A program made the position numbers and the translations under genes. Shown piece by piece: positions 4,063 to 25,639 of a stretch of 38,361 bases of DNA. Location of the stretch: positions 1-38,361 of IMG/VR virus record IMGVR_UViG_3300032053_009940, one strand, 5' to 3'. Each line of letters begins with the position of its first letter. Position 1 is the stretch's first letter. The stretch comes from a virus. Below the pieces are notes generated by a model that made no database searches, had not been told where the DNA came from, and saw nothing but the letters and a program-made list of their open reading frames with translations.

Positions 4063-4824
4063 TTATTTTAAACGAGGTGGTATGCCAGAATCACGAAAAA
4101 TATTTCCATCCATTCCAAGATTAAAAGGTATTTTCCATTCTATATTATTTTTTGATAGTATGTATGCTAATATTCCATTTGGCCCAAGAAAATTTGGAAA
4201 ATTTTGGTCATGTTCTTTTATATAATTAACAGCAGAACAATAAATATCCATATTTTTTTTATTTCCTATAGCAAATATATCATCTACCCAAGCTTTATTA
4301 TCTTCTAAATTCCAAGAAATATTAAATAAATTAATGTAATTTAAATCCAATTTACGTATAATTATTTTATTAAATAAGTAAAAATCAAATCTTAGTTTAA
4401 TAACTGCATCATATTCAAAGTTTTTTTGTTTTTCATATTCGCCTTTTAATTCATTAGCTTTATACATTGATAATAAACAATTATATATTCTATCATATGG
4501 CATTCTTCTATAATCAAATACAGGATCATTAAAAAATGTTTCTTCTATATAAACATCATTTATTCTATCATCTTCTGTTTCAATATATATAGGTTTATAT
4601 AAATTTATTATATCAGATATTGCATTTTTGTCAAAAACAGTCGGTTCACGATTATGACCACTATCTTTTCCTTTATATGGTTGATTTTCTTCCCACTCAT
4701 TTCTCCACCATGTATGTATAAAAACATCTGTTATTTTATTGGGTAACATTAATTTATCTCTTATACTAGTATAACATTCTAACACATTTCTTGGTTGACC
4801 AGAAAAACATAAAGCGATTTTCAT
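4063..4824 (-). CDS. 'GQPR'-family putative glycosyltransferase, copy 1
   Basis: 253 aa. First (lowest-coordinate) of four paralogs in this window sharing an N-terminal block of the form M-K-(I/M)-A-L-C-x-x-G-Q-P-R, then D-V-F-x-H-T-W-W, and a central Y-D-x-x-I-x-x-R-x-D motif. Here these are CFSGQPRNVLECY, DVFIHTWW and YDAVIKLRFD. The R-x-D block resembles the short acidic motif of GT-A enzymes, so I infer a glycosyltransferase, but I do not recognise a named family with certainty. It overlaps the radical SAM gene upstream by 4 nt. The pairing of a GQPR gene with a radical SAM gene repeats in the next module, so the two may act on the same substrate. Confidence 0.6.
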   Translation of the reverse strand: MKIALCFSGQPRNVLECYTSIRDKLMLPNKITDVFIHTWWRNEWEENQPYKGKDSGHNREPTVFDKNAISDIINLYKPIYIETEDDRINDVYIEETFFNDPVFDYRRMPYDRIYNCLLSMYKANELKGEYEKQKNFEYDAVIKLRFDFYLFNKIIIRKLDLNYINLFNISWNLEDNKAWVDDIFAIGNKKNMDIYCSAVNYIKEHDQNFPNFLGPNGILAYILSKNNIEWKIPFNLGMDGNIFRDSGIPPRLK

Positions 4825-6335
4825 ATTTTTAGATATTGTTTATTTTTAATTTTCATTAATTTATCAAACATCTTTTTTCCTTCTTCATTTTCTTGTTCGG
4901 CTATTTTAATATCTGGCCAATAAGATTCAGGTAATAATGTATATAAAACAAATGTTTTTTCTAAACCGTAAATTTCTTCTTTACTTAAAGATGGCATGTT
5001 TAATAAGCTATGTTTAAAATAAGAGAGTGGTATATCTTCATTTCCTTCTATGTATTTTTTTTCTATACACATTTTTCGTAATTTAGTACCAGCAAATGGA
5101 ATAAACGTAAATATATTTAAACTGTGTTTTCCTTTTAAAATTTCTGAAACAGTTTTATTTAATTTAATAGTTTCGAATATATTTTCTCTTGTTTCTCCAG
5201 GTAAACCTATCATATTATTAATATTGGAGACAATATTGTAATTAGCTATTATCGTAAATGCCTCTATTATTTGTTTATTAGATAAATGTTTATTCAATAA
5301 ATTTTGTCTAATATATTCAGATCCATGTTCAATAGATACAGCTATAGATTTACATCCCATTTTTACTAATAATTGCGTTTTTTCATTTGTAATAGTGTCT
5401 AATCTCGTTTGACAATGAAAAGGAAGATTTATTTCTTCTTTATATCTTTCTACAAAGGTTTTAAATTTCTTTAATGGCCAAGCCAAAAAGGTTTCAGAAC
5501 TCATAAATATAAAATTAATATCATATGTTTTAATTGTATGATTCATTTCTTCAAAGATCTTATCTAAATTTTTTATTCGATAATATTTTTCGCAATTATC
5601 TATTTTATATAGATTTTTTATTGAAGGTGATGCACAATATGTACAGTCAAATGGACAACCTCTATCTGTATCAATTGCGCATGATCTAATTATTTTTCCA
5701 TAATATGGTCTATAGAAACGATAATATTCATAGATAGAAAAATCAGGTATTGGTAATGTATTTAAATCTATTAATTGTCGTTTAGGATTTTTTATTATTA
5801 TATTGTTATTTTTATAATAAAGATTTTTAATGTGATAACAATCTTTATTATTCATAAGTTTATTACATAATTCAACTATAGTTTCTTCACCTTCACCAAT
5901 ACAGACAAAATTTACTAAGTTACTATTTAATATTTTTTCATAATTAAAAGTAGCGCCTATACCTCCCATTATTATAGGAATATTTTTTTCTTTAATTTTT
6001 TCAATAAATGAAAAAGAAAAAGTTATTGTGCCATCTAATACAGAAAATCCTATTAAATTAGGTTTATAATCTTCAACGGTTTTAATAAAATCTTCATACA
6101 TATCTTCTTTTTTCGTAATAAAATATTCATCTATTGGAGATTTTTTTGTATGACCTAATTTTTCACGAATATCATCGATAGATTCTGTAAATTTATAAAG
6201 AGTAGTATCAAACAATTTAACATCAAATCCATCTTGTTTTAAACATGCAGATAATATTGCTAAATGTGTTGGTGCAACACCATTTAATGGTTCATTAGGA
6301 TAAAATAATAATATTTTAAAATTCTTTTTCATCAA
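4821..6335 (-). CDS. B12-binding-domain radical SAM enzyme, copy 1
   Basis: 504 aa. The N-terminal half (residues about 5-165) has the cobalamin-binding Rossmann fold pattern: ILLFYPNEP, ILSACLKQDGFDVKLFDTT, IGFSVLDGT, IPIIMGGIGATF and VCIGEGEET. The usual B12-ligating D-x-H-x-x-G is not visible, as is common in subgroups of this class. The radical SAM core starts at DRGCPFDCTYC (Cys227, 231, 234), the CxxxCxxC ligands of a [4Fe-4S] cluster, followed by NNMIGLPGETRENIFETI and EKTFVLY near the end. Enzymes of this class include C-methylases and ring-forming or rearranging enzymes. It is one of three paralogs in a row. Both ends overlap GQPR-family genes by 4 nt. Confidence 0.9.
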   Translation of the reverse strand: MMKKNFKILLFYPNEPLNGVAPTHLAILSACLKQDGFDVKLFDTTLYKFTESIDDIREKLGHTKKSPIDEYFITKKEDMYEDFIKTVEDYKPNLIGFSVLDGTITFSFSFIEKIKEKNIPIIMGGIGATFNYEKILNSNLVNFVCIGEGEETIVELCNKLMNNKDCYHIKNLYYKNNNIIIKNPKRQLIDLNTLPIPDFSIYEYYRFYRPYYGKIIRSCAIDTDRGCPFDCTYCASPSIKNLYKIDNCEKYYRIKNLDKIFEEMNHTIKTYDINFIFMSSETFLAWPLKKFKTFVERYKEEINLPFHCQTRLDTITNEKTQLLVKMGCKSIAVSIEHGSEYIRQNLLNKHLSNKQIIEAFTIIANYNIVSNINNMIGLPGETRENIFETIKLNKTVSEILKGKHSLNIFTFIPFAGTKLRKMCIEKKYIEGNEDIPLSYFKHSLLNMPSLSKEEIYGLEKTFVLYTLLPESYWPDIKIAEQENEEGKKMFDKLMKIKNKQYLKI

Positions 6336-7093
6336 CGTATTAAATTATAACTAATGCCAGCATGTTTAATTACTTTATCTAATAAACCATTAAACAATAA
6401 ATAAAAAGCTATAAATTGTTCGCCATTTATAATATTACAATTAGATAATTCATCGATATTTTGTATTAAATGATAAAATGGAGATTCTTGTTTTTTTAAC
6501 ATCATTTCATAATTTTTATCAAAATCATCATAAAGATTCTTAAAAAAATATTTATAATTACCAAATAACCATAAATTATCATTAAATATGTAAGGTCTTC
6601 CAGAATGAAAATTATCTACATAGATATTATCTTTATTTAATGTTGAAAGAAGCGGCATTGTATAAATTGCAATTTCAAATCTAGTTAAAATAATCCAATC
6701 ATATTCTATATGATTATCTTTTTCATAGTTTTCACATAACTGTAAAGAATTTTTAAATGAATAAAATCGCGATTTATGTGAATCTATAGTATTATCATGT
6801 TTATCGGGCCATGGAACATTATATTGTTTTTCTGAATTAAAGTTTTTTGATGCTTCATATATCACATCTTTAAAATGATATAAATTATTAATTTTTTCTG
6901 GAAAATTTGCTTCAATTTTATAATCTTTTTTAACAAGTGGCCCTGTATAATAATATTGGCCCACTTGTTCTAGTGACCACCATGTGTGTGCAAAAACATC
7001 AGTATCATATTTAGATATAAATTCTCTTTGGAGATGAGAAAAGCCAATTTCGTAATTTCTAGGTTGGCCATGTAAACATATAGCTATTTTCAT
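6332..7093 (-). CDS. 'GQPR'-family putative glycosyltransferase, copy 2
   Basis: 253 aa, with CLHGQPRNYEIGF at the N-terminus, DVFAHTWW near residue 33, and YDWIILTRFE near residue 133; the last motif has Glu in place of the Asp of the other copies. A C-terminal segment GEQFIAFYLLFNGLLDKV closely matches the copy at 15080, so copies 2 and 3 form a subgroup distinct from copies 1 and 4. No signal peptide or membrane segment is visible. Placed between two B12-radical SAM genes. A glycosyltransferase role is inferred from the R-x-D/E motif and from the neighbourhood only. Confidence 0.6.
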   Translation of the reverse strand: MKIAICLHGQPRNYEIGFSHLQREFISKYDTDVFAHTWWSLEQVGQYYYTGPLVKKDYKIEANFPEKINNLYHFKDVIYEASKNFNSEKQYNVPWPDKHDNTIDSHKSRFYSFKNSLQLCENYEKDNHIEYDWIILTRFEIAIYTMPLLSTLNKDNIYVDNFHSGRPYIFNDNLWLFGNYKYFFKNLYDDFDKNYEMMLKKQESPFYHLIQNIDELSNCNIINGEQFIAFYLLFNGLLDKVIKHAGISYNLIR

Positions 7094-7102
7094 TTTAAAC
7101 GT

Positions 7103-8611
7103 TTAAATATTGTTTTTTAATATTGTTAATTTATTTAACATTTCTTCTCCTTTTTTATTATCTTGTTCTGCTATTTTAATATCTGGCCAATAAGATTCAG
7201 GTAATGCAACATATAGAACAAAAGTTTTTTCTAAACCATAAATTTCTTCTTTAGTCATAGTTGGCATATTTAACAAACTATGTTTGAACCATGACATTGG
7301 AATTATTTCATTACCCGTAATGTATCCTTTCTTTAAGCAAATTTCCTTTAATTTTGTACCACCAAATGGAATAAAGGTTAATATGCTTAACCAATATTTA
7401 CCCCTTAAGATCTGACCTACTTGTTTATTAAGTCTAATAGTCTCAAATGCATCTTCTCTTGTTTCATCTGGTAGGCCTATCATGTTGTTTATTGTAGGCT
7501 CCATATCATATTTTGCAATTATTTCAAAAGCATCTATAATTTGCTTATTAGTTAAACGTTTATTGAGTAACTCTTGTCTAATTCTTTCTGATCCATGCTC
7601 AATTGCTACAATTAAAGATTCACATCCCATTTCTACTAATAATCGAGCTTTTTCATCTGTAACAGTATCTAATCGAGTTTGACATAAAAATGGAAGATTA
7701 ACTTCTTTTTTATATCTTTCTGCAAATTCTCTAAATTTTTTCATTGGCATTCCTAAGAATGTTTCTGATCCAAAGAAAACGAAATTTGCATCGATTGATT
7801 TAATGAGAATTTTCATTTCATCAAAAATCTTATCTAAACTTTTCATTCTAAAATATGTACCACATATATTATGATCAAAAACATCTTTTAATGCAGGTGA
7901 TGCACAATAAGTACACTTAAATGGACAACCTCTATCAAAATCCACACATATCATTTTAACAATACGCCCATGAAATGGTCTATAAAAACGATAAGATTCA
8001 TAAATAGAAAAATCAGGAGTAAGTATATCATCTAATTTTAAAAGAGGTCTTAATGAATTTTTTATAATATTTCCATCTTTATCTTTAGTATAAATATTTT
8101 TTATTTTAGTACAATCTTCATTATTCATAAGTTTATTACACAATTCAACTAAAGCTTCTTCTCCTTCACCTATACATGCAAAATCTATTTGTGGGTGATT
8201 TAATATTTTTCTATAATTAAAAGTAGTTCCCACGCCACCTGTAACTATTTTAATTTTTTTATCTTTGATTTTTTCTAAAAATTCAAATACAAATTCTATA
8301 GAACTTTCAATTAATGTAAAACCAATAAGATTTGGTTTGTAATCTTCAATTATTTTAATAAAATCTTCATAAATATTAATAGTTTTAGCAGTAAAATATT
8401 TTTCTATATTACTAGCTTTAACTAATCCCAATTTTACACGTTTTTCATCATTTGTTTCTGTGTTTTGTGGTTTATATATTGTACAATCAAATAACTTTAC
8501 ATCAAACCCATCTTTTTTTAGATAAGCTGCTAATATTGCAAGATTACTTGGTGCTATTCCTAATAATGGCATATTGGGATAAAACAACAATACTCTAAAA
8601 TCTTTTTTCAT
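7103..8611 (-). CDS. B12-binding-domain radical SAM enzyme, copy 2
   Basis: 502 aa, collinear with copy 1 over its whole length. N-terminal cobalamin-binding domain (VLLFYPNMP, KIVTGGVGTTF, ACIGEGEEA) and a radical SAM core with DRGCPFKCTYC (Cys229, 233, 236), NNMIGLPDETREDAFETI and a C-terminal MPTMTKEEIYGLEKTF shared with the other copies. The differences are spread along the protein rather than confined to one domain, so the copies are old duplicates, not a recent repeat. Gap of 9 nt to the GQPR gene downstream and 6 nt to copy 3 upstream. Substrate unknown. Confidence 0.9.
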   Translation of the reverse strand: MKKDFRVLLFYPNMPLLGIAPSNLAILAAYLKKDGFDVKLFDCTIYKPQNTETNDEKRVKLGLVKASNIEKYFTAKTINIYEDFIKIIEDYKPNLIGFTLIESSIEFVFEFLEKIKDKKIKIVTGGVGTTFNYRKILNHPQIDFACIGEGEEALVELCNKLMNNEDCTKIKNIYTKDKDGNIIKNSLRPLLKLDDILTPDFSIYESYRFYRPFHGRIVKMICVDFDRGCPFKCTYCASPALKDVFDHNICGTYFRMKSLDKIFDEMKILIKSIDANFVFFGSETFLGMPMKKFREFAERYKKEVNLPFLCQTRLDTVTDEKARLLVEMGCESLIVAIEHGSERIRQELLNKRLTNKQIIDAFEIIAKYDMEPTINNMIGLPDETREDAFETIRLNKQVGQILRGKYWLSILTFIPFGGTKLKEICLKKGYITGNEIIPMSWFKHSLLNMPTMTKEEIYGLEKTFVLYVALPESYWPDIKIAEQDNKKGEEMLNKLTILKNNI

Positions 8612-8617
8612 ATTTTA

Positions 8618-11167
8618 TTAAGTTTCTACACATTTTTTACAAACCGGATTTTTCCAATATTCTCCATTTTTATGAAGTTTTCTTAAAACATTTATTTCTT
8701 TACTATTCCATGATTCTTCTATATTTTTTAAGATTAGTTTAGTTCTGGTTTCATTTTTTAATCCAACATTTGGTATATTAGATAAAGGTATTGAAGTTTT
8801 TAACATTGCTATAGGAATTTCTGCACCAAAAAATGTGCAACATGGTAAAATTGTACCATCATATCTAATTGTTAAATGAAGAAATGGTTGATTACATTTA
8901 AATTTTTTTCTAACATATTCTGCTTTTTCATATCCTAAAATGTTTATATAACTTTGAATTCCTATACTTTCTACTTTAGTTTCCCAATATTTTACAAAAT
9001 CTTCTAATTCGTGTTCATTATCATCGGTTTTGACAAAATTAACTCTTATAGTTGGTAAAGTAACATCCATTCCCCTTTTTATTTCAATAAATTTTTCTAT
9101 ATTTTTTTTAATTTGATTAAAGTTACCACCTTTTCTAATTTTATCATAAGTATCTTTTGTATAAGCATCTATTGATATTTGAATACGACTTAGTCCCGCT
9201 TCAATTAATTCTCTTGATATTTTTTCTGTAAGTAATGAGCCATTAGTACTAAAATATATGTCTAAAATTCCTGCATCTTTTGCATATTTGATAAATTTAT
9301 TTATATCTTTTCTCATAAGAGGTTCATTAAGATAATTAAGTCTTATAGCCTTTAAACCTTTTGGGATAGAATAATCGATTATTTCTTTATAAACACTAAA
9401 AGGAAACCATGTATCTTTATCTTTTATTTTAGATTCAATATTCCAGGTACATGTTATGCAAGAAAAATTACATGAGTAATTTAATTCAAAATCAAGTTGT
9501 GGAGGAAATTCTGGTATAATTTCTAAATTTGATGCTTTATCCCATATTTTTCTATATTCATCAAAATCTTTTTTATTTATATCATTTCTAAGATTATTAA
9601 TAAATTTTTCTTTATTATAAACTTCAGTAAATTCTTCAGCCGGAGTTTTTTCTTCATCATTTATATGATCTAATATTTCTGACAAATCATTAAACATTTG
9701 TATTCCTTCTTTATTATCTTGCTCAGCTATTTTTATTTTAGGCCAATATAATTCAGGTAACAATACATACATAGCAAAAGTTTTTTCTAATCCATAAATT
9801 TCTTCTTTACTTAATGACGGCATATTTAAAATACTTTCTTTTTGATAAGAAAAAGGTATATCAAAATCTTTAGAAATATAATTTTTTTCAATACATATTT
9901 CTCTTAATTTAGTACCAGCAAAAGGAATAAATGTAAAAACGTTTAAAGTATGATTTCCTTTTAAAATTTTTGATATTTTTCTATTTAGATCTATTGTTTC
10001 AAAAATATTTTCTCTGGTTTCATCTGGCAAACCTACCATATTATTAAGAGTAACAGTAATATTATATTTAGCTAAAATTTTAGAAGATTCTAATATTTTT
10101 TTATTAGAGATATGTTTATCTAATAATTGTTTTCTTATTTTTTCTGAACCATGTTCTAAACCCACAGAAACAGCTTGACATCCCATTTCAGCTAATAATC
10201 TAGTTTTTTCTTCAGAAAACATATCTAATCTGTTTTGACTCCAAAATGGTAAATTAATTTCTTTTTTATATCTTTCGGCAAATTCTTTAAATTTTGCTAG
10301 AGGTAGTGCTAATAATGTTTCTGAACTTATCCATAAAAAATTAATATCATATTTATTAATAAGATCTTTTATTTCTTCAAATATTTTATCGAGATTTTTA
10401 ATTCTATAATAAGTGCCACAATTATCTTTTTTAAATTCTTCTTTAAGAGCGGGTGCTGCACAATAGGTACAAGAAAATGGACATCCTCTATCTAGATCAA
10501 TTTGAGCCATTCTAACAACAGTACCCATAAATGGTCTATAAAATCTATCATATTCATAGATAGAAAAATCAGGTATTGGTAATTCATTTAAATTAGCTCT
10601 TTTACGTTTCGGATTTTTTATTATATTTCCGTCTTTATCTTTAAAACAAAGATTTTGAATTTTTGTACAATCTTCATTATTCATAAGTTTATTACATAAT
10701 TCAACTAAAGCACCTTCTCCCTCACCTATACAAACATAATCAACTAAATTTGAATTTAATATTTTTTCATAATTAAATGTTGAACCAACTCCACCAGTTA
10801 TAATTGGAATTTTTTTATGTTTAATTTTTTCAATAAAAGAAAATGCATATTTAATTGTACTATCTATAACATTAAATCCAATAAGATTTGGTTTATATTC
10901 TTCAACTATGTGAATAAAATCTTCATATATATCTACATTTTTAGCTTTTACATAATTATTTATATCTGCTTTCATTACTTGTCCAAATTTTGATCTTACA
11001 TCATCTTGTGTTTCATCTGTCGTATTTTTATACATTGTACAATCAAATAACTTAACATCAAAATTATCTTGTTTTAGGCAGGCAGATAATATAGCCATAT
11101 TACTTGGTGCCACACCTACTAAATATTCATTCGGATAAAATAATAATATTTTGAAATTTTTTCCCAT
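8618..11167 (-). CDS. Fusion of B12-radical SAM enzyme and radical SAM/SPASM protein, copy 3
   Basis: 849 aa, uninterrupted. Residues 1 to about 485 are a third copy of the B12-radical SAM enzyme (CIGEGEGALVELC; DRGCPFSCTYC with Cys229, 233, 236). After a charged linker, residues about 550-849 form a second radical SAM domain: YSCNFSCITC (Cys566, 570, 573), then STNGSLLTEKI and ISIDAYTKDTYDKIR. It ends in a SPASM-like cysteine-rich tail with PFLHLTIRYDGTILPCC and a final CKKC (Cys843, 846) for auxiliary Fe-S binding. Two different radical SAM modules on one chain imply consecutive or coupled radical steps. The start overlaps the HAD gene stop by 1 nt (TAATG). Confidence 0.9.
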   Translation of the reverse strand: MGKNFKILLFYPNEYLVGVAPSNMAILSACLKQDNFDVKLFDCTMYKNTTDETQDDVRSKFGQVMKADINNYVKAKNVDIYEDFIHIVEEYKPNLIGFNVIDSTIKYAFSFIEKIKHKKIPIITGGVGSTFNYEKILNSNLVDYVCIGEGEGALVELCNKLMNNEDCTKIQNLCFKDKDGNIIKNPKRKRANLNELPIPDFSIYEYDRFYRPFMGTVVRMAQIDLDRGCPFSCTYCAAPALKEEFKKDNCGTYYRIKNLDKIFEEIKDLINKYDINFLWISSETLLALPLAKFKEFAERYKKEINLPFWSQNRLDMFSEEKTRLLAEMGCQAVSVGLEHGSEKIRKQLLDKHISNKKILESSKILAKYNITVTLNNMVGLPDETRENIFETIDLNRKISKILKGNHTLNVFTFIPFAGTKLREICIEKNYISKDFDIPFSYQKESILNMPSLSKEEIYGLEKTFAMYVLLPELYWPKIKIAEQDNKEGIQMFNDLSEILDHINDEEKTPAEEFTEVYNKEKFINNLRNDINKKDFDEYRKIWDKASNLEIIPEFPPQLDFELNYSCNFSCITCTWNIESKIKDKDTWFPFSVYKEIIDYSIPKGLKAIRLNYLNEPLMRKDINKFIKYAKDAGILDIYFSTNGSLLTEKISRELIEAGLSRIQISIDAYTKDTYDKIRKGGNFNQIKKNIEKFIEIKRGMDVTLPTIRVNFVKTDDNEHELEDFVKYWETKVESIGIQSYINILGYEKAEYVRKKFKCNQPFLHLTIRYDGTILPCCTFFGAEIPIAMLKTSIPLSNIPNVGLKNETRTKLILKNIEESWNSKEINVLRKLHKNGEYWKNPVCKKCVET

Positions 11168-11526
11168 TATAATATTATATCTTTAATTCCTATATTTCTT
11201 TCTATTTCTATTGCTGTAGCAACTTTTATATCATCATTTGGTTTTTTATCATTAATTATAATACGTTCTCCTCTAGTAAGACCCATTATCAGCTGATCAT
11301 AGAATATTCCTAATTTAGTTAATTGTTTTTCAGTGTATTTTCTCATAGATTCTTTTCTTCCTGTAGTCAAAATAATTTTATATCCAAGAGCTTCCCATTC
11401 ATTTAATTTTTCTATTGCGCCAGGTAAAAGAATTGGTAATTGAAGAAGTTGTGTTGTTAAATTACCTTGATGTTTTAATAAACAACCATCTATATCTAAA
11501 AAAATAGTTTTTTTATATTCATTCAT
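11167..11526 (-). CDS. HAD-superfamily sugar phosphatase-like protein
   Basis: 119 aa. HAD motif I FLDIDGCLL (Asp11, Asp13), motif II as LTTGRK around residue 54, and a distal NDKKPND acidic motif near the C-terminus. The small size without a cap matches the C0-type HAD phosphatases found in capsule and LPS loci, which dephosphorylate sugar phosphates before or after activation. Both ends overlap neighbours (1 and 4 nt). With the kinase and nucleotidyltransferase upstream it would complete a phosphate-shuffling set such as that in heptose or NDP-sugar pathways (inference). Confidence 0.78.
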   Translation of the reverse strand: MNEYKKTIFLDIDGCLLKHQGNLTTQLLQLPILLPGAIEKLNEWEALGYKIILTTGRKESMRKYTEKQLTKLGIFYDQLIMGLTRGERIIINDKKPNDDIKVATAIEIERNIGIKDIIL

Positions 11527-12200
11527 ATTTCAAAGGGATATTTTTGTCCAGAATACATTTCAAATTGTTTTGATGCTTGCCACATTGATAATTTTTTACC
11601 CCAATTAGTAGTTGTCACACAATCAATAAAATAATTAGTAAATAAAAGATCTTTTTCTATATTTTCAACAGGCGTACAATTATAAACAATACTATTATCT
11701 ATAATTAATCTATCATTCCAATTACTTCTTGATATAATTATTACATCAAGATTTATTTTTTTAGCTGCATATTGAATTGCTTTAGAATAACCACCATTTC
11801 CTAAAACATATAATTTATTAAAACCACTTTTAATTGCAGTTTTTAAAGCTAAATCAGCAGCATAAATGTCTGTATTATAAGCTTTATATATTGGATAATT
11901 TTCATCAATTTTTATAATTGTATTTGCTGCACCAATAATAAGACATTCTTCACTTACATAATCAACGTAATTTAATACATCTATTTTATATGGCATACTT
12001 ACTGCAAAAGCAGCAAAATTTAAAGTTCTTGCAGCTTCAACAGCTTCTTTAATAGAAGAAACTGAAAATGATTTATAAATTGCATTTATTTTACAATATT
12101 GAAATGCTTCATTAAATAATTTACATCCTAAATTCCCAGCTTTAACTGAAAAAGACCCGTATAATTTTGTATCACTATTTATTTCCATTAAAAATATCAT
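11523..12200 (-). CDS. Shikimate/quinate dehydrogenase-like oxidoreductase
   Basis: 225 aa with the order of motifs seen in AroE-type enzymes: an N-terminal substrate-site region (KLYGSFSVKAG), AFAVSMPYKIDVL with the catalytic-type Lys72, IIGAANTI, AYNTDIYAA with Asp111 as partner of the lysine, and a NAD(P)-binding loop VLGNGGYSKAIQYAAKK near residue 132. AroE proteins are about 270 aa, so this is a short version. Nothing else of the shikimate pathway is nearby, so it more likely oxidises or reduces a cyclic polyol or sugar acid used for the glycan (inference). Start may be Met1 (12200) or Met5 (12188), overlapping the upstream stop by 26 or 14 nt. Confidence 0.75.
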   Translation of the reverse strand: MIFLMEINSDTKLYGSFSVKAGNLGCKLFNEAFQYCKINAIYKSFSVSSIKEAVEAARTLNFAAFAVSMPYKIDVLNYVDYVSEECLIIGAANTIIKIDENYPIYKAYNTDIYAADLALKTAIKSGFNKLYVLGNGGYSKAIQYAAKKINLDVIIISRSNWNDRLIIDNSIVYNCTPVENIEKDLLFTNYFIDCVTTTNWGKKLSMWQASKQFEMYSGQKYPFEI

Positions 12201-14112
12201 TAAACATTAGTTTCGATTTAAAAAACAAAATTTCATCCATTGGTTCTTCATGTAACGCGCACATATTTAAATAAATAAGTGATGTTATAATTTTTATAAT
12301 TTTCATATCATAGTTATTATCATTTATCCATTTTTCAAACATGTGTTCTATTTCTTCTGATTCTCTGTAATGTCTATAGTGTATATCATATTCATTTGTA
12401 TAAAGAATTTCATAAGATTCTCGATATTTCATTTTATCATAAGACATCAAAATACCACCATACATTTTAGCCAAATCGTAATAAAGATCTCCACCATTTA
12501 TCGATCTTCCGAAAGTATCTCTCCAATCTATAAATTTATATTGATTATTAGGTGTTAAAATAATATTATCAAATTGAAGATCCCCATGAAAGTTCTTAAT
12601 AGTGTTTTTTGCATACTCATTCCAATTTTTTAAAGTTTTAAGTGCAATATCAAGATAACTATTTATTGATTGAGTTTTTATTTCATTTATAATATGATCT
12701 TGTTCAAATGCTGCTCCTTTTTTTGATAAAAATTCATTAAGCCTTTTAATGGTTTTATCTTTATAAAAATAATCATAGTCTAATTCATCACACACTGTTT
12801 GTTCTATCCAAACTTTTTCATTTAGCCAATTTAATAAAGGAATAATATGTTCTTTTAAATTAGTATTATATAACGTTTTTCCTTCTATTTTTTGATATGA
12901 ATATGTATGATCATTATATACATCAATAGTTGGTACTAAATCTCCTAAAATTTTAGATCTTTCTATTTTATTTAAACAAACTAATTTATCTGGAAATGTT
13001 TTAATTATTTTATTATTAATACAATATGTATTACTTCCATCAATTTTTACTAATCCAACATTTTTACTTTTTTTATTATACTGTTCTTTATTTCCAACAT
13101 CATAATATGTAAATTGTTCTCCTTTAATTTTTTTATATGCAAAAGGATTATAAAATGCAGAAACAATTTCTCCTTCTACAGATATATTAGCTTCAAGTTG
13201 TTCCCAAAATGTTCTATAATCTAATATTCCAAATGTACCAATACACGCCCATTTATAACTATTATTAGATTTATTCTTAAAAACTTTAATGTTAGCATTT
13301 TCATCTATATCTAAAGATGAATAAATTTCTGGAGTATGTGCACATTCCATAGTTTCCATGGGTTGCATACCTATCCAATTATAATCTAATGCTGGAATTT
13401 TTTCATGTACAAATCCATCAGATACTGTAAAATAAAATGGACGTTGTAAATATTCTTTACATTTCATCATAGAATATCCAGGACCTGATCCAACACCTAT
13501 AAATTTATCTATTTCAACATATGTTATTTTTCTATCAATATGAACAATATCACAATATGATTTTACTAAATTAGATTTATAACCAACAGCTATAACTATA
13601 TCATATTCTTTTGGGACGCTATTGATAATAATCGATATCATTGCAATTCCGTCTATTGGTAATAGACATTTATTTGTGTGTGTAGTTAAATCTTTCATTC
13701 TTGAACCAATACCTGCAGCAAGAATACAGAATGCTGGATTTAATTGTTCATCTTTAATTATTCCACTTGGACGATGTACATCATCTTCTACTCTAATAAC
13801 ATCATCTACTTGAGGTGTTGATACTTCTTGAAGTATTATATCAGTTAGTGCTTCTAATCTATGAAGTCTTCCTGGCAAAACAGTAAAAAAATCATTGGTT
13901 TTTATTATCTTTGATTGAAGTACCTTATTTTCATCTTCAAGATACATAATAGCCTCTCCGACTATTAAATAATTTGTTTCAAGTTTTTTTTCATGGTATT
14001 GAAGACTCGTTCTATAACCTTTATTAATATAAATTCTTTTATAACAATAGAAATCATTTAATTCAAGCCATACTTCTTTACCCCATGGTTTATATTTTAT
14101 TTTACTATCCAT
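12175..14112 (-). CDS. Cupin / sugar nucleotidyltransferase / sugar kinase triple fusion
   Basis: 645 aa in three parts. Residues 1-115 are a cupin resembling the phosphomannose isomerase type II domain (PWGKEVW, QYHEKK with His40, LPGRLHRLEA with His84). Residues about 127-350 are a nucleotidyltransferase (LAAGIGSRM at 131-139, NKCLLPIDG, VSDG). Residues about 370-645 are an aminoglycoside-phosphotransferase-type kinase (FHGDLQFDNIIL with His509 and Asp511; FIDWRDTFG). One chain could therefore phosphorylate a sugar, transfer NMP to it, and hold or isomerise it. ManC-type proteins join the first two domains in the opposite order, so this layout is unusual. The 3' end overlaps the AroE-like gene. 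Confidence 0.85.
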   Translation of the reverse strand: MDSKIKYKPWGKEVWLELNDFYCYKRIYINKGYRTSLQYHEKKLETNYLIVGEAIMYLEDENKVLQSKIIKTNDFFTVLPGRLHRLEALTDIILQEVSTPQVDDVIRVEDDVHRPSGIIKDEQLNPAFCILAAGIGSRMKDLTTHTNKCLLPIDGIAMISIIINSVPKEYDIVIAVGYKSNLVKSYCDIVHIDRKITYVEIDKFIGVGSGPGYSMMKCKEYLQRPFYFTVSDGFVHEKIPALDYNWIGMQPMETMECAHTPEIYSSLDIDENANIKVFKNKSNNSYKWACIGTFGILDYRTFWEQLEANISVEGEIVSAFYNPFAYKKIKGEQFTYYDVGNKEQYNKKSKNVGLVKIDGSNTYCINNKIIKTFPDKLVCLNKIERSKILGDLVPTIDVYNDHTYSYQKIEGKTLYNTNLKEHIIPLLNWLNEKVWIEQTVCDELDYDYFYKDKTIKRLNEFLSKKGAAFEQDHIINEIKTQSINSYLDIALKTLKNWNEYAKNTIKNFHGDLQFDNIILTPNNQYKFIDWRDTFGRSINGGDLYYDLAKMYGGILMSYDKMKYRESYEILYTNEYDIHYRHYRESEEIEHMFEKWINDNNYDMKIIKIITSLIYLNMCALHEEPMDEILFFKSKLMFNDIFNGNK

Positions 14113-15083
14113 TTATTATATAATTTTATTTTTTCTTTAATTTGGTTTTTTATAATATTATCATCCATATTTATTATTTCTCTTATTGCAGTATTATGGT
14201 AGTGACCACAAATTTCTATAAGTTTAGTTTTTTCTTGAGACGGTTTAAAATAAGTTAAATCAACCCATTTTTTCCATTTTTCTCCATTTAAACAAATTTT
14301 ATAAATTTTCTCAAAAACTGTATTATTATTTATATGATCTAATAATACCATTGTTTCAATAACCCCAAATTCTGGAGCAATATTGATTGCGTTTAATCCA
14401 TTATCAAATCTTATTTTAATTTCTTCATTTGTAAGATAATCTCCATTATGTTCTTTACTTAAAACTCCAAAATCGTTACACACGTTAATCATATTTTTTA
14501 ATCTATTAAGATTAAATATACCTGTATTTTTAGTTTCTTCTAGATTTGTTCCTGATTGAATTACTGCATATTTTATTCTATTAAAAAGAGGACCTAAATC
14601 TTTTTGTAAATCATTTAAAAATGTATATAAATAAAGAGCATCATATGGTTTTATCGCTTGTTCAGTTCCTATTTCAAAAAAACTATTAGGACTTAACGTA
14701 TTCACATAAAAAATATGGTTAAGAGTTTCTCTTAAACAATGAGTATAATCATTAATTTCATTTTTAAATGGATCAATATGAATAATATCCATATCTTCTA
14801 TAGCATCCCAATATAACGATGTCATTGTATCATACATGGACGCTTTACTATTTTTCCCCTGTCCTTGACCTGAATGATCTCTACAAATTAATACTTTATT
14901 TGTTTTACTTTTGATATATCTAGTAAAATTATGCGTATTATAGCCAACATATCCTCCATCATAATCTATTTGTCGTCTCGTTGCAACAAAACCAAATCGT
15001 TGATTATTTTCTTCTGCAAATTCTATTACAGCATCAATAATGTTTTGTGTCATTGGTCCAATATAAAATTTAATATCTTTCAT
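14097..15083 (-). CDS. TIM-barrel sugar aldolase-like protein (GatZ/KbaZ-like)
   Basis: 328 aa. The pattern IGPMTQNIIDA, GFVATRRQIDYDGGYVGY, ICRDHSGQGQG, DIIHIDPFK and FFEIGTEQAIKPYD matches what I know of the GatZ/KbaZ proteins (non-catalytic subunit or paralog of tagatose-bisphosphate aldolase), which are TIM barrels. Here the protein stands without a GatY/KbaY partner, so it may be an enzyme in its own right, for example making a carbon-carbon bond in an unusual ketose. No signal peptide. It overlaps the triple-fusion gene by 16 nt and the GQPR gene by 4 nt, so it is in the same translational unit. Family call is moderate; function is inferred. Confidence 0.55.
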   Translation of the reverse strand: MKDIKFYIGPMTQNIIDAVIEFAEENNQRFGFVATRRQIDYDGGYVGYNTHNFTRYIKSKTNKVLICRDHSGQGQGKNSKASMYDTMTSLYWDAIEDMDIIHIDPFKNEINDYTHCLRETLNHIFYVNTLSPNSFFEIGTEQAIKPYDALYLYTFLNDLQKDLGPLFNRIKYAVIQSGTNLEETKNTGIFNLNRLKNMINVCNDFGVLSKEHNGDYLTNEEIKIRFDNGLNAINIAPEFGVIETMVLLDHINNNTVFEKIYKICLNGEKWKKWVDLTYFKPSQEKTKLIEICGHYHNTAIREIINMDDNIIKNQIKEKIKLYNKWIVK

Positions 15084-15841
15084 CTTTCTACATTATAATT
15101 TAACTCATTTAATTTAAAAACTTTATGTAAAACTCCATTAAACAATAAATGAAAAACCATTGCTGTTTCAGCTGTAATATAATAATATTCAAATAATTCT
15201 GTATCAATTAATTGTTGTACATATAATGTATTTTTTACATTTTGCTGCATATCATAATTTTTATCAAAATCATTAAACATATTGATAAAATCATATTTAC
15301 GATCCATTCCAAATACCCACAAATTATCATTATAGATATATTTTCTTCTATAATGATAATTACTTACATATATATGTTCTTTACTATATTTAGACAAACT
15401 AAAATCCGGCCAATTATAAATTCCAATATCTGGTCGTGTAATTATAGTCCAATCATAATTAATATTAGTTTCTTGTTCATATTCTTTTAGTAAAGTCAAT
15501 ACTTGATTTAAAGAATAAAATCTAGAACAAAGAGAATCATATATTAAATCGTGATTTCCATCTATTTTATATTTTCTTATTGGTATAAATTTTTTAGATT
15601 TTTCATATTTAAATTTTTTAAAATTATATGCAGCAGATATTTCAGGTATTAAGTTTGGTTCAACATTATAAATTGGTGGAGACCAGGGTGATGAATCATA
15701 AGCTTGTCCTATCATATCTTCTGACCACCATGTATGACAAAAAACATCTACATCATATTTAGATATAATTTCTTTATTAAGAAATTCATATCCTTTTTTC
15801 CATACGCGCGGTTGTCCCTGAAGACATAACGCCATTTTCAT
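15080..15841 (-). CDS. 'GQPR'-family putative glycosyltransferase, copy 3
   Basis: 253 aa: CLQGQPRVWKKGY, DVFCHTWWSEDM, NYDWTIITRPDIGIY, and a C-terminal ETAMVFHLLFNGVLHKVFK that parallels copy 2 at 6332. Order and spacing of blocks are the same as in copies 1, 2 and 4. Cytoplasmic by absence of a signal peptide. Flanked with 4-nt overlaps by a SAM methyltransferase and the GatZ/KbaZ-like protein. Glycosyltransferase function is inferred from the R-x-D block and context. Confidence 0.6.
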   Translation of the reverse strand: MKMALCLQGQPRVWKKGYEFLNKEIISKYDVDVFCHTWWSEDMIGQAYDSSPWSPPIYNVEPNLIPEISAAYNFKKFKYEKSKKFIPIRKYKIDGNHDLIYDSLCSRFYSLNQVLTLLKEYEQETNINYDWTIITRPDIGIYNWPDFSLSKYSKEHIYVSNYHYRRKYIYNDNLWVFGMDRKYDFINMFNDFDKNYDMQQNVKNTLYVQQLIDTELFEYYYITAETAMVFHLLFNGVLHKVFKLNELNYNVER

Positions 15842-16635
15842 TTTTTTAATATTTTATAAACACATTCTCTACCATCATATTCACTATCCATAACTGATAT
15901 TTTATTATATATTGTTTTTTTAAATTGCTTTTTAAGTATATCATCTATATATTTATAAGTCAGTTCAAGAGGATGTCCGGCATCATAATGATCATTAATT
16001 TCATTAATTCTATTTTCTGGAAGAAATTTTTCATGAAAAATAAATACTCCGTCATCATCTAACATTTCATCTATTTTTTGAAATATTAGATCAATATCAT
16101 AACAATGAGGAATAACGTTTAGCATAACAACCAAATGATATTTATATTGAATTATAAATTGTTCAATTGGAATAGGATATAAATTTACTTTTAAATTATT
16201 TAAATATCCATTTTTATATTTACATTTAGCGCTATGATTTAAATAATCATTAATTAATGGATCTAATAAATCTATTCTTTCAATATGTTTAAATAATTTA
16301 GGTATTATTAATCGTAAATTTGTAAAAGGACCACACCCTAATTCAATCATGTTTATTGGTTTATTTGGTAATGAAAAATTTAATTGTTCATAACCACCAA
16401 ATATTTGTTCATATTCGCGATTATGATCATCTTCCATTATTTTAACCATTGTAGCTCCCGGTTTATCACACCATGTGGTTTTTTCAAAATGTTGGGCTTC
16501 TTTCCATCGTTCTATATCAACAACAGGTCTACCGACATTTTTAATCATGAATTTTTCATCATTATGTTCTTGTAATAGTTTTTCAGCTTCTTCTCCTTCA
16601 TAACAATTTATGTTCTTATCAACGTATGATTTCAT
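15838..16635 (-). CDS. Class I SAM-dependent methyltransferase
   Basis: 265 aa. Clear SAM-binding motif I NMIELGCGPFTNLR, acidic end of strand 2 in IDLLDPL, and motif IV LVVMLNVIPHC followed by DDDGVFIFHEKF. This is the Methyltransf_11/23 type, different from the FkbM enzymes in the island. An N-terminal extension of about 85 residues precedes the fold and may bind the acceptor. It is the last gene before a 201-nt break, after which the next cistron begins at 17694. Acceptor unknown; sugar or lipid-linked sugar is most likely from context. Confidence 0.82.
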   Translation of the reverse strand: MKSYVDKNINCYEGEEAEKLLQEHNDEKFMIKNVGRPVVDIERWKEAQHFEKTTWCDKPGATMVKIMEDDHNREYEQIFGGYEQLNFSLPNKPINMIELGCGPFTNLRLIIPKLFKHIERIDLLDPLINDYLNHSAKCKYKNGYLNNLKVNLYPIPIEQFIIQYKYHLVVMLNVIPHCYDIDLIFQKIDEMLDDDGVFIFHEKFLPENRINEINDHYDAGHPLELTYKYIDDILKKQFKKTIYNKISVMDSEYDGRECVYKILKK

Positions 16636-17705: not shown

Positions 17706-18509
17706 TTAAGTTTTTTTATTTTTCCACATTTCCATATCTTCTAATGTGTCTCTTAATAAATTACTATATTTGTGTTCTTTAGATTTAAAATAAAAAATTT
17801 TTTTCTTTGTATTTAAATCTTGAGATATATTTTCTGTAACATAATCTTCATAAATTAATCCATTATTTATATATAAATTTCTAATAAAATCATTAACATA
17901 AGTTAATCTTCCTGAACCTATAATTTCATTTTCTTTTGCTAATATTGATCGTTCAACTACATATTTAGGATGTACTAAATCTCTATAAAAATAAGTATTT
18001 CCTATTTCAATTCTTTTTTTATTAATTATTGAATCAAAAATTTTAGAAAAAAGAAATTCTTTTTTTCGATATACTGAATTAAAATTAAATGGATGTAAAA
18101 CAATAACTTCTCTATATAGTTGATGTACTTCATATATTTGCTGAATCATCATTTCTTTTGATATACAATATCCCGTATATAGAGAATTGTGATCATAATC
18201 GAATTTATCATTTAAATCTATTTCTCCTGTATAATTATTCCATAATTCACTTGATCCATATACAATAATATAATTACAACGGTCTTTAAAAAAATTAATT
18301 AAATCAAGAGTAAATTTAACATTCACTTTAAAATATAAAGTAAAATCTTTTATTTCATGAAGTCGTTGTTCTGCAAATGTTATAAATACTCTATCATAAA
18401 ATTTATTTCTAAATTGATATAAATTAATATTTCTTGAAGATATTCTTTCATATTCTTCCGGAAAATAATATGAAAGTTGACTCGATGAACCTATAATAAG
18501 TGAATTCAT
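17706..18509 (-). CDS. Extended SDR-type sugar epimerase/reductase
   Basis: 267 aa, NAD(P)-dependent short-chain dehydrogenase of the sugar nucleotide type. The N-terminal cofactor loop is LIIGSSSQLSYYF, less glycine-rich than the usual GxxGxxG. VYGSSELW supplies the catalytic serine strand and YTGYCISKEMM the Y-x-x-x-K pair. An HPFNFNS block follows, corresponding to the R.xN substrate loop. It is shorter than the typical 300-330 aa. Translationally coupled (4 nt) to the C-methyltransferase gene upstream, a pairing typical of deoxysugar routes where C-methylation is followed by ketoreduction. Confidence 0.8.
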   Translation of the reverse strand: MNSLIIGSSSQLSYYFPEEYERISSRNINLYQFRNKFYDRVFITFAEQRLHEIKDFTLYFKVNVKFTLDLINFFKDRCNYIIVYGSSELWNNYTGEIDLNDKFDYDHNSLYTGYCISKEMMIQQIYEVHQLYREVIVLHPFNFNSVYRKKEFLFSKIFDSIINKKRIEIGNTYFYRDLVHPKYVVERSILAKENEIIGSGRLTYVNDFIRNLYINNGLIYEDYVTENISQDLNTKKKIFYFKSKEHKYSNLLRDTLEDMEMWKNKKT

Positions 18510-19753
18510 ATTATATCAAATTTAGGACATGGTATGATAAAATGACCACCATTTTTTAAATATTCTTTTTCTCTTTCTATAAATTCATTTATAAAATGCC
18601 ATGGCAATATAAGTAAATAATCTGGATGAACATTTCTCATAGTTTCTTCAGAGTGGATAGAAATATTTGTTCCAATTGTTTTTAATCCATATTTATATGG
18701 GCTTCTTTCTGCCGCACCATCAATTAAATTATCATCTAAATTAAACCATTGTAATAAAGTATTTCCTTTAGTTGATGCGCCATAAACCCAAATACTTTTT
18801 CCTTCGCTATGAATTTTATTAATAAAATTATATGTTTCATTTCGTAAACTTAAAATATTTTCCCAAAATTGTATATAATTTTCTTTATTGTTTAATTTTA
18901 AGGTTTTTTCATATTCTCTAAGTGATTCAATACGCATTTTTGCTACATCTCTATATGGTGATGATCCAAATGAACTAAGATTGGCAATTTCTTTTTGAAT
19001 ATAAGTTCTAAAACTTCCACCATTAACGTCATTCAATAATACATCAACTATTTTAAATCCTACTTTTTTTAACATATATTCCATTGAATATAAAGAATGA
19101 TAGAATACATGTTCATGACAAATATTATCGAATGCAAGTTGTTTAATCATTAATGGCATATAACTTTGTTGAATTACAAATAATCCATCATCTTCCATTA
19201 TATTATAAATTTCTCTAAGAAAAGAAATTGGATCACTTAGATTGTAAAACATTGCAATACATGTTATTATAGAAGCCTTTGTTTTTATAAAATTTTCATA
19301 AATTTCTTTTGAAAAGAAATTTTGAATAGATTTATCACATTTAGATATGATTTCTTTTTGAAAACTTTCTCCAACGGGATCAATGCCTACTGTAAAATAA
19401 TTATTTGTTTGATGTACAAATGATAATAAAGTACCATCATTAGACGCAATATCTAAAAAAACAGGAGAAGTAGTTTTTAATTTAGATAATCGCATACAAG
19501 ATTTTGCAATATCTTCTAATTCGTTAGTCATGGTTGTATTAGTATTCGAACGATACCAATATTTTTCATATATAGAATGTTTATCCGCATTTTTTTTCAA
19601 TTGTAAACATTGAGTTTCGGGAGATAACATCATAGTTAAATCCCATTTTTTTAATTCTTTATAATCTCCTTCAGTTTTAATGAAATCTGATATATATAAT
19701 TCGCCTAATGAAAACAATTCAATAAGTGGTTTATTTGATATTCTACAATTCAT
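18506..19753 (-). CDS. TylC3/NovU-type sugar C-methyltransferase
   Basis: 415 aa, full length for this family, which methylates a carbon of NDP-keto-deoxysugars. The SAM-binding domain has FLDIASNDGTLLS and GIDPVGES; CHEHVFYHSL supplies the catalytic-type His pair region; the C-terminal domain has SIWVYGASTKGNTLLQWF and ends LKNGGHFIIPCPKF, all characteristic. The N-terminal zinc-binding part looks degenerate: only Cys3 of the expected C-x-x-C remains (NCRISNKP) and the second pair is reduced to QCLQLK. Activity may not need the zinc site, or the protein may be divergent. Next to the SDR gene (4 nt overlap). Confidence 0.9.
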   Translation of the reverse strand: MNCRISNKPLIELFSLGELYISDFIKTEGDYKELKKWDLTMMLSPETQCLQLKKNADKHSIYEKYWYRSNTNTTMTNELEDIAKSCMRLSKLKTTSPVFLDIASNDGTLLSFVHQTNNYFTVGIDPVGESFQKEIISKCDKSIQNFFSKEIYENFIKTKASIITCIAMFYNLSDPISFLREIYNIMEDDGLFVIQQSYMPLMIKQLAFDNICHEHVFYHSLYSMEYMLKKVGFKIVDVLLNDVNGGSFRTYIQKEIANLSSFGSSPYRDVAKMRIESLREYEKTLKLNNKENYIQFWENILSLRNETYNFINKIHSEGKSIWVYGASTKGNTLLQWFNLDDNLIDGAAERSPYKYGLKTIGTNISIHSEETMRNVHPDYLLILPWHFINEFIEREKEYLKNGGHFIIPCPKFDII

Positions 19754-19763
19754 ATTTTTAATT

Positions 19764-20513
19764 TTATCTATATTTCAAAAATTGTTGTTGGCTTAACATA
19801 TGATGTTCTTCAGGATATTTAAAAAATGAAGTAATTTTAATACCTAATTTTTTTAAATACTCCCCTATTAAACACTCAACACTAAATGGTAATCCATTTT
19901 TAACTAATATTTTATAAAAAAGAAATATTGATGCATATTTTTTCATAGTTTTTACGTTACCGGCTGAAAGTACATCTGAAATACATGAAAATTTATTACA
20001 CATATTTGGATTATTATAATCTACATATTCTATATTCATAAGATTTGTTGTTAATAATTCGTTATCTTCAATAACAATATTAGTAATAGGTTTAACAAAT
20101 ATATTATCTGTTCTACTTAATATAATATAATCATATGTATTTTCATCTATGATATTAATTACATTATACATAGAATAAAATATATTATGAATAGAAAAAG
20201 ACCAATAACGAAATATTGGAGTATTAAGTTCTCTAGATGACATCCATGATTTAGTAGTTTCAAGAATATCATAATCATCTTGCATGATAATTTTAGGTTT
20301 ATATAAAATATTAAATTCATTTAAAACCGATGGACCTACTTTAAATGAGAAAGTTTTTTGATTATTAAATTTAATTCCTTCTGTTTCTTCTCTGTAAGTA
20401 TGAACAAAAATATCTTTTATATTTAATGGTTCAATTATATTTTTTTTCCAATATGGATAACATTCATCAATATTTCTTAGTTGACCATAAAAAACTAGAG
20501 CAATTTTTTTCAT
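19764..20513 (-). CDS. 'GQPR'-family putative glycosyltransferase, copy 4 (GQLR variant)
   Basis: 249 aa: KIALVFYGQLRNIDECY, DIFVHTYR in place of DVF.HTWW, and YDYIILSRTDNIFV. The most divergent of the four copies; ECY after the first block and the PIFRYW segment link it to copy 1 (4063) rather than to copies 2 and 3. No signal peptide. 4-nt overlap with the upstream SAM-fold gene. Function as for the other copies: probable glycosyltransferase, not proven by any motif I can name. Confidence 0.58.
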   Translation of the reverse strand: MKKIALVFYGQLRNIDECYPYWKKNIIEPLNIKDIFVHTYREETEGIKFNNQKTFSFKVGPSVLNEFNILYKPKIIMQDDYDILETTKSWMSSRELNTPIFRYWSFSIHNIFYSMYNVINIIDENTYDYIILSRTDNIFVKPITNIVIEDNELLTTNLMNIEYVDYNNPNMCNKFSCISDVLSAGNVKTMKKYASIFLFYKILVKNGLPFSVECLIGEYLKKLGIKITSFFKYPEEHHMLSQQQFLKYR

Positions 20514-21142
20514 ATACTATCTTTTTTTATAATATCTTCAAATTCTTTATATGAAATTATTTGTAATAATTCGTTTTTATTTTTATCGAAATCATCCCAT
20601 GAAAGATTTTCAATTTCTACGTTAGTGCGAATATTTGTAAGAATTTTTCTCTTAGTTAAAATACCACAGCCCATATTTTCATTAATAACGAAACAACTCC
20701 AATTTATTAATTCATTTTTTAAACGAATAAATGCTTTGTAAACCGTTCCATTCCAAATATAATCTTGTGCATCAACTAGATATGCATAATAATCTCTTGT
20801 ATGAAATTCATCAAGAGGTATACAATCATGTATAATAATATATCCATTATTATTAAGCTGCGTAATAGAATTACATATATCTTTATAACATTGATCAGTT
20901 GTTCGTAGACCTTTTACAAAAATAACATCATATTTATCATTTATAAAATCTTTGTCATTAAAAAAAGCATCACTTAATATACATGGAGACGGAATCATAT
21001 AGTATTCATTCTGTATTCCTTGTTTAATTGAAACATCTATATTATTAAAATTATCTTGTAAATAATCTACTCCAATTTCTAAATAAGATTGAAATTTATA
21101 TCTATCAATAATAAAATTTATTATATCTGTATGAGTTTTCAT
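20510..21142 (-). CDS. Methyltransferase_24-like protein with degenerate active site
   Basis: 210 aa. Homologous to the N-terminal half of the 413-aa protein at 23647: both start T-D-I-I-N-F-I, have SYLEIGV, then a QCY-D block, GYIIIHDC / GFIVIHDC, and WNGTVYKA / WNGTVYRA. In the 23647 protein the strand before QCY is VIFIDALHEE; here it is VIFVKGLRTT, losing the Asp and His that normally bind metal or SAM. The protein may be catalytically altered or structural. It overlaps the DegT gene by 4 nt and the GQPR gene by 4 nt. Complete length for the single domain. Confidence 0.7.
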   Translation of the reverse strand: MKTHTDIINFIIDRYKFQSYLEIGVDYLQDNFNNIDVSIKQGIQNEYYMIPSPCILSDAFFNDKDFINDKYDVIFVKGLRTTDQCYKDICNSITQLNNNGYIIIHDCIPLDEFHTRDYYAYLVDAQDYIWNGTVYKAFIRLKNELINWSCFVINENMGCGILTKRKILTNIRTNVEIENLSWDDFDKNKNELLQIISYKEFEDIIKKDSI

Positions 21143-22233
21143 TTAAGATATTCTTTTATTGTTTTGCATATGTATCTTATTTCTTTTTTTGTTAATTCTG
21201 GAAAAGAAGGAAGAATAAATGCTGTTTCAAATAATTTTTTAGAAATTTTAAATTCTTTAAAATAAGAAAAATGAGAATGATAATTTATAGGTGGAAACAT
21301 TGGTCTTGTTTCTATATTACTAGTGTAAAGAAAATATTTTAAAGCATCTGTTTTTTCTTTATTAAAATTTTTCATTCTTATTCCGAACATCCAATTTGAA
21401 TGTTTACAATATTCTGATACGTGTTGAAATTCAATTTCTTCAACATTTTGTAGTTCTTCTTTATATAGATTAAAAACATTATTTTTTAATTCAAGGATTT
21501 CATCTAATATTTCAAGTTGCCCATATAAAAGAGCAGCCTCAATATTAGTCATTCTATAATTATATCCTAAACCAGAAAAAATAAAATTTCTTGAAGTAAC
21601 TCCTTGCGATTTTATTCTTTTAATTTCATTAGCAATTTCTTCATCATTTGTGCAAAATGCGCCACCTTCTCCTGTAGTAACTGTTTTACCTCCAAAAAAA
21701 GATATTGATGAAGCTAAACACTGTGATCCGGCTTTATAAGATCCATAACTACCAAAAAAACCTTCGCAATTATCTTCAACAATAACCATATTAGGACAGT
21801 GAAATTTTACATAGGGTATATTTATAATGTTTCCCATATTATGCACTGCTAAAAATGCTGCATCCGGATTTGCTTCGTGCGTTTTCTTTAAACAATCATA
21901 ATCAATATTCCAAGTATGAATATCTGCTTCTACAGGAATCAACTCATAAATAGGATTTGTAATAAACATGTTCCATGCTGCTATAAAAACGTTTGATGGA
22001 ACAATAAGTTTTTTAATTTCAGGATATTTAAATTCAAGTGCTTTTGCAACTAAATGTACGGCAGATGTTCCATGATCTGATGTTAATACATATTTACATT
22101 GAGAAATTTCACTTAATTTCTCTTCAACCATTTGTACATATTTTCCATAACAGGAAATCCATGTTGAATCTAAAGCTTCATGAGCATATTTAAGAACTCT
22201 TTTTGGTAAATATGGTTTATATGATGGTATCAT
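21139..22233 (-). CDS. DegT/DnrJ/EryC1-family sugar aminotransferase
   Basis: 364 aa, complete. Family motifs in order: MIPSYKPYLPKR, STWISCYGKYV, TSDHGTSAVHL (PLP phosphate site), EDNCEGFFGSYG (Asp that binds the pyridine nitrogen), FFGGKTVTTGEGG (PLP lysine about 183), and GLGYNYRMTNIEAALLYGQLE. The His after GT (GTSAVHL) matches perosamine-synthase-like members. Transfers an amino group from glutamate to a keto-NDP-sugar. Paralog of the truncated gene at 1-884; the two lie about 20 kb apart and probably serve different amino sugars. A GNAT gene nearby could acylate the product. Confidence 0.92.
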   Translation of the reverse strand: MIPSYKPYLPKRVLKYAHEALDSTWISCYGKYVQMVEEKLSEISQCKYVLTSDHGTSAVHLVAKALEFKYPEIKKLIVPSNVFIAAWNMFITNPIYELIPVEADIHTWNIDYDCLKKTHEANPDAAFLAVHNMGNIINIPYVKFHCPNMVIVEDNCEGFFGSYGSYKAGSQCLASSISFFGGKTVTTGEGGAFCTNDEEIANEIKRIKSQGVTSRNFIFSGLGYNYRMTNIEAALLYGQLEILDEILELKNNVFNLYKEELQNVEEIEFQHVSEYCKHSNWMFGIRMKNFNKEKTDALKYFLYTSNIETRPMFPPINYHSHFSYFKEFKISKKLFETAFILPSFPELTKKEIRYICKTIKEYLK

Positions 22234-25629: not shown

Positions 25630-25639
25630 CTTATAAAGT

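Follow-up and report, generated by a model that had tools for sequence, protein, structure and literature searches.

Three cobalamin-type radical SAM paralogues, one apparently fused to a SPASM-like partner, in the sugar-gene cluster of a gp23-type phage fragment

Introduction

What would a phage do with three cobalamin-type radical SAM (B12-rSAM) enzymes? Genes of this class are almost absent from isolated phages, in which any such match was found in two or three of 50,697 records. Yet the DNA analyzed here, an IMG/VR record of 38,361 bases (the window; GC about 24%, nearly all genes on the minus strand), carries them as a duplicated and maintained family that includes what is best read as a natural fusion. 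Here, we examine the domains, relatives, and neighbors of these genes and weigh what they may do.

Results

The window is a fragment of a T4-like (gp23) large phage and contains a gp23-like capsid fragment matching PF07068. It also encodes NrdJ, an adenosylcobalamin-dependent ribonucleotide reductase (34931-37336, minus strand; TIGR02504, 456 bits versus a cut-off of 399.95), which places the genes below in a context of B12 use. When isolated or assembled phages were compared, both proteins had their best relatives in LR756500, an uncultured phage of 462 kb; these were followed by Bacteroides and crAss-like phages in the case of the reductase and by Prevotella Lak phages in that of the capsid. 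We infer that the source is likely a large phage of Bacteroidota. Only the central part of the profile is matched by the gp23-like open reading frame itself (28927-29820), a short one of 297 aa, which may therefore represent either a paralogue or a capsid gene that has been truncated.

By coordinate, the minus-strand locus runs GQPR1 (4063-4824), RSAM1 (4821-6335), GQPR2 (6332-7093), RSAM2 (7103-8611), and RSAM3 (8618-11167). This is the order given in an earlier note on this DNA, whose spacing of 1 to 9 nt gives way to mostly overlapping junctions (-4, -4, +9, and +6 nt, with -1 nt between RSAM3 and the phosphatase gene upstream). From a methyltransferase gene (16635) down to an FkbM gene (2467), every junction overlaps or spans at most 9 nt. 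RSAM1 (504 aa; TTG start, next codon ATG) and RSAM2 (502 aa) are B12-binding radical SAM proteins, and in RSAM3 the same architecture (amino acids 1 to 505; this part is RSAM3N below) is joined to a radical SAM and SPASM-like half (about 556 to 849).

All three proteins score above the curated Pfam cut-offs for Radical_SAM (E of 2.3e-23 in RSAM2) and for B12-binding (PF02310; E of 2.1e-14, 2.1e-17, and 4.2e-12 for RSAM1 to RSAM3). The CX3CX2C motif of the radical SAM domain is intact at residue 227 in RSAM1, 229 in RSAM2, and 229 and 566 in RSAM3. With an N-terminal B12-binding Rossmann domain, this is the makeup of class-1 cobalamin-dependent radical SAM (Cbl-rSAM) enzymes. A motif search of all three proteins found no DxHxxG, as the earlier note had reported, and its absence is normal for class-1 enzymes (PMC13331322). 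The three are paralogues (RSAM1/RSAM2, 63.1% identity; RSAM1/RSAM3N, 66.3%; the remaining pair, 60.8%) under purifying selection, and because their dN/dS is about 0.28 to 0.34 (NG86), all of them look maintained. Chance is excluded as an explanation for this family. None of the named equivalogs (HpnJ, BchE, TIGR04013, PhpK, AprD4, and others) was reached, the best score being 112 bits versus cut-offs of 251 to 750; therefore, no function can be read from family scores.

We then considered the cobalamin pocket. In the AlphaFold model of RSAM3, residues 1 to 505 have pLDDT values mostly above 80; the model is poor after about residue 545, and the SPASM half is mostly below 60. The best 13 Foldseek matches in the PDB were TsrM, OxsB, AprD4, MgmA, and CysS, all with a B12-type domain. 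R69 in TsrM and N186 in OxsB sit over the cobalt's lower face (PMC13331322), and in a profile alignment their shared column holds L100 in RSAM1, I101 in RSAM2, and I101 in RSAM3. Given the TsrM/OxsB-like model and the hydrophobic residue at the lower-face position, cobalamin binding by the three proteins is plausible. The N-terminal domain could instead be a relic, the proteins being AprD4-like radical SAM sugar dehydratases or epimerases that do not use cobalamin. AprD4, which acts on a sugar (PMC5461906) and is a dehydratase, not a methylase, is indeed the best PDB sequence match for both RSAM profiles. However, the profile hardly matches its N-terminal half, while the alignments with TsrM and OxsB extend across the B12 domain. 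Furthermore, all three paralogues retain the GG-x-G-x-T-F and GEGE/GEGG segments, and the phage uses B12 in its own NrdJ. We therefore regard loss of cobalamin use as unlikely.

Next, we asked where the copies came from. No viral relatives emerged from pattern scans based solely on the window proteins; motif-pattern scans of IMG/VR recovered close ones. A viral contig of 44.9 kb (G001) has one copy, 65% identical to RSAM3N, and one of 253.7 kb (G089) has copies 63% identical to RSAM1 and 59% identical to RSAM3N. Both encode gp23, and G089 also encodes an NrdJ homologue (G089:C1:72732-76223), whose match is split into two parts of a single 1168-aa frame and which may thus hold an in-frame insertion such as an intein. 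RSAM1 to RSAM3 and the G001 and G089 copies form one clade with support of 100/99, which places the expansion in viruses. Separate acquisitions from unrelated bacteria, the outcome that the earlier note had set against its idea of copies arising inside phages, are ruled out by this clade. A sister relationship between the two G089 copies is rejected (AU p 0.0095, in a test named after the tree was seen), which suggests that duplication preceded the parting of these phages. We claim only the outer viral clade, as the branching inside it was unstable across trees (RSAM3N with G001; unresolved; the window trio together; the G089 copies apart), with a p of 0.056 for the window trio as one clade. 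Further viral copies (30 to 45% identity) and cellular copies (up to 42%) fall outside the viral clade; the cellular ones come from MAGs selected by the phylum of a Nanoarchaeota genome and may include mis-binned contigs.

The earlier note had also remarked that no known phage pathway needs three such enzymes. Its force is lessened by further viral contigs that have at least two B12-rSAM copies and by DPANN-type MAG contigs (G083:C67, G086:C1, G085:C29, and others) with clusters of up to five or more homologues, often with glycosyltransferase-like genes.

The interleaved GQPR genes had been taken for transferases. A model of GQPR1 (phrog_13607; pLDDT 81, pTM 0.85) is GT-A-like: GT6 enzymes were the best Foldseek matches (E of 4e-6, at a TM of only about 0.45), and almost all of the best 50 matches listed were GT6, glycogenin, or other glycosyltransferases. 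Where a DXD nucleotide-sugar motif or its equivalent was sought, only R-x-(D/E) is conserved. By the model, the GQPR proteins look like GT-A-fold glycosyltransferases, this fold being predicted for GQPR2 (likewise phrog_13607) by family membership. The idea that each GQPR-RSAM pair is a duplicated two-gene module did not survive. GQPR1 and GQPR2 are 28% identical versus 63% for the adjacent RSAM1 and RSAM2, and GQPR2 is closest to GQPR3 (46%; 15080-15841, minus strand), 8 kb away; a fourth copy, GQPR4, lies at 19764-20513 (minus strand). A GQPR profile that, as a positive control, recovered the four window copies along with the ones in G003 and G004 had no match in G001, G002, or G089 to G093, all of which have related RSAM genes. 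Between its two RSAM copies, G089 has a different, unclassified gene of 223 aa. Tandem duplication of the module is ruled out by this unequal divergence and by the missing GQPR genes.

We also examined the C-terminal half of RSAM3. In addition to CX3CX2C, it has CX12GX4C at 758 to 776 and CX2C at 843 to 846, and it matches PF13186 at 27.7 bits versus a cut-off of 21.5; the last SPASM cysteines are absent, in a region where the model is poor. Two viral contigs, L055 (in G002) and L081 (in G093), carry a B12-rSAM, a separate SPASM radical SAM, a cytidylyltransferase (PF02348), a 2-hydroxyacid dehydrogenase, and an NAD-dependent epimerase (SDR), in a common order except for one additional gene in L081. 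A cellular contig (L074) has the same kinds of genes, with KdsB over its cut-off. The C-terminal half of RSAM3 matches the unfused SPASM partners in these three contigs at E of 2e-33 to 6e-48; therefore, by sequence, RSAM3 is best read as a natural fusion of a recurrent pair of enzymes that usually stand side by side. A more distant form of the pair is found in L023, L029, L033, and L036. Most simply, then, the two RSAM3 enzymes act on one pathway. The B12-rSAM gene of L081 (L081:5323-7734, IMGVR_UViG_3300020171_001620) contains an intein (PF14890 and NUMOD3) inside its CX3CX2C, just before the second cysteine; its row, with the intein in place, was omitted from the tree.

The genes around the RSAM cluster build and attach sugars. 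Upstream of RSAM3, all on the minus strand, are a HAD-type phosphatase (11167-11526; next to RSAM3, with a 66% homologue that likewise overlaps the RSAM3 homologue in G001), a shikimate-dehydrogenase-like oxidoreductase (11523-12200; below equivalog cut-offs), a cupin, sugar nucleotidyltransferase, and kinase-like fusion (12175-14112; the kinase part assigned by eye, with no Pfam match), and a GatZ/KbaZ-like TIM-barrel protein (14097-15083). In G089, the cupin and the NTP-transferase are separate genes next to the RSAM pair. Farther along the same strand are a SAM-dependent methyltransferase (15838-16635), an NAD-dependent epimerase-like SDR (17706-18509; 58% homologue in G001), a methyltransferase with a C-methyltransferase C-terminal domain (18506-19753; Methyltransf_14, E of 6e-41), and a DegT-type sugar aminotransferase (21139-22233; LegC/PseC-like). 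Fucosyltransferase-like, GT25, and FkbM genes are also present. Further recent duplications lie in the same gene run: at 23027-24888, two FkbM-like genes with near-identical C termini, one fused to another methyltransferase-like half, and at 24892-26389, two related genes in tandem.

Marine virus AG-345-E15 (L066:8246-12170) has GQPR, HAD, cupin, NTP-transferase, and GatZ-like genes side by side, as at 11167-15841 of the window; this sugar cassette is therefore common to distant phages. The clusters of this virus and of cyanophage S-SM2 are similar to that of the window but lack the B12-rSAM. Among bacterial relatives of the RSAM genes, one in Azospirillum adjoins a NeuA-family gene, one in Roseibium lies inside an rfaD/rfaE2 cluster, and one in Mesorhizobium is found with DegT and a split transketolase. 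No NeuA or KdsB was found among the window proteins examined, so the CMP-activation linkage of the relatives is only analogous for the window. A RiPP role was also considered, and an unsystematic look at small open reading frames noticed no short precursor gene beside the RSAM genes.

Two other substrates have to be weighed against this neighborhood. The first is phage DNA or its precursors, which the enzymes might hypermodify in place of a surface glycan. The window has a T4 AGT-like gene of the DNA alpha-glucosyltransferase family (29820-31235; PF11440 and phrog_2888), which could mean that the phage DNA is glucosylated. However, this gene is 18 kb from the RSAM genes, no base hydroxymethylase or thymidylate synthase homologue was seen among the proteins examined, and RSAM relatives sit in surface-sugar clusters, making DNA a very improbable target. 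The second is a cytidylylated phosphonate such as CMP-2-hydroxyethylphosphonate, methylated as by Fom3, with the product decorating a phosphonoglycan. On two archaeal-MAG contigs (L075:4035-9208 and L076:8839-14097), a B12-rSAM stands beside a fosfomycin-like early phosphonate set. The immediate neighbors of these proteins (36% and 34% identical, respectively) are a cytidylyltransferase-PEP mutase fusion and a phosphonopyruvate decarboxylase, each scoring above its cut-off, together with an Fe-ADH of the phosphonate type; Fom1, Fom2, and FomC make up the same enzyme set (PMC8158854). Because of these two relatives, a Fom3-like substrate stays a live alternative, and the stand-alone rfaE-II/cytidylyltransferase-like gene at 31443-31901 of the window would fit it. 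Nevertheless, we consider it improbable, as the L075 and L076 proteins fall outside the clade of the window copies, the window neighbors are sugar genes, and no PEP mutase was found in the window, G001, or G002, all of which are fragments.

Discussion

The RSAM genes lie amid genes for the synthesis and transfer of sugars, so the virus probably produces sugars of unusual chemistry for surface remodeling. The window neighbors and the settings of the Azospirillum, Roseibium, and Mesorhizobium relatives point to activated sugars destined for a surface glycan. The explanation that we favor, and to which we give an even chance, is that RSAM1 to RSAM3 are class-1 Cbl-rSAM enzymes, duplicated in gp23-type phages, that tailor nucleotide-activated sugars or ulosonates before these are transferred to such a glycan. 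A single ancestral gene would have been acquired by a line of large gp23-type phages, in which it then duplicated. Each protein would bind a [4Fe-4S] cluster, SAM, and base-off cobalamin, with the hydrophobic L100, I101, or I101 over the lower face. The substrate may be a nucleotide-activated sugar or ulosonate supplied by the neighboring kinase/nucleotidyltransferase, TIM-barrel, SDR, HAD, and aminotransferase genes. The reaction could be a radical C-methylation, the commonest reaction of the class and one known on sugars from the Cbl-rSAM methylases GenK and GenD1 (PMC5461906), or a related step (deoxygenation, ring contraction, or oxidation); AprD4-type deoxygenation is the main alternative. 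In RSAM3, the B12-rSAM joined to its usual SPASM-type partner would allow two successive radical steps on one polypeptide, and the GQPR proteins and other transferases would attach the product to a glycan of the host surface or the virion.

A more specific form of this proposal is tentative: RSAM3 would be bifunctional, carrying out a B12-dependent and then a SPASM radical step on a nucleotide-activated sugar, and the huge-phage lineage would have expanded the family to make branched or deoxygenated, host-foreign sugars that remodel surface glycans. Because a pathway partner can be named from the fusion and the recurrent operon (the SPASM radical SAM, and in relatives the cytidylyltransferase), the question of the substrate is testable. 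If the proposal is true, phages are a source of unusual sugar radical chemistry, and their dependence on host vitamin B12 extends beyond DNA precursors.

In outline, both the enzyme class and its occurrence in the sugar clusters of phages are already known. The host-recognition clusters of pelagimyophages are reported to gain radical SAM cassettes among glycosyltransferases (PMC7029224), and the host-recognition or LPS clusters of pelagimyophages and of cyanomyophages such as S-SM2 resemble the window in combining, in T4-like phages, glycosyltransferases with sugar-nucleotide genes; GQPR-family genes also occur in cyanophages such as S-SM2. Unlike in the window, neither tandem expansion nor a B12-rSAM/SPASM fusion is among the features described for these clusters in the portions of the sources used here (PMC7029224; S-SM2). 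Within the collections searched, the tandem expansion, the viral clade, and the fusion appear new. Compared with radical SAM/SPASM proteins, the C-terminal half of RSAM3 is missing the additional C-terminal cysteines that would complete a seven-Cys SPASM domain and is fused to a B12-rSAM. By function, the closest class-1 systems are GenK/GenD1 and Fom3. The Fom3 pathway with Fom1, Fom2, and FomC has its counterpart in exactly the set that the two cellular homologues adjoin, whereas the phage fragment is without PEP mutase. AprD4, the best sequence match, brings a sugar substrate that is its own and differs in an N-terminal domain that falls off the profile, the RSAM proteins scoring 56 to 60 bits versus an NCBIfam cut-off of 500. 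TsrM, OxsB, TokK, and CysS share with RSAM1 to RSAM3 a Rossmann B12 domain that precedes a radical SAM barrel with CX3CX2C, the lack of DxHxxG, and a lower-face position in the loop after strand 3, which in TokK (Trp) is likewise hydrophobic and noncoordinating. The window proteins differ from the class-1 enzymes in identity (at most 18% in structural alignment), in their leucine or isoleucine at the lower face, and in being phage-borne and present in three copies.
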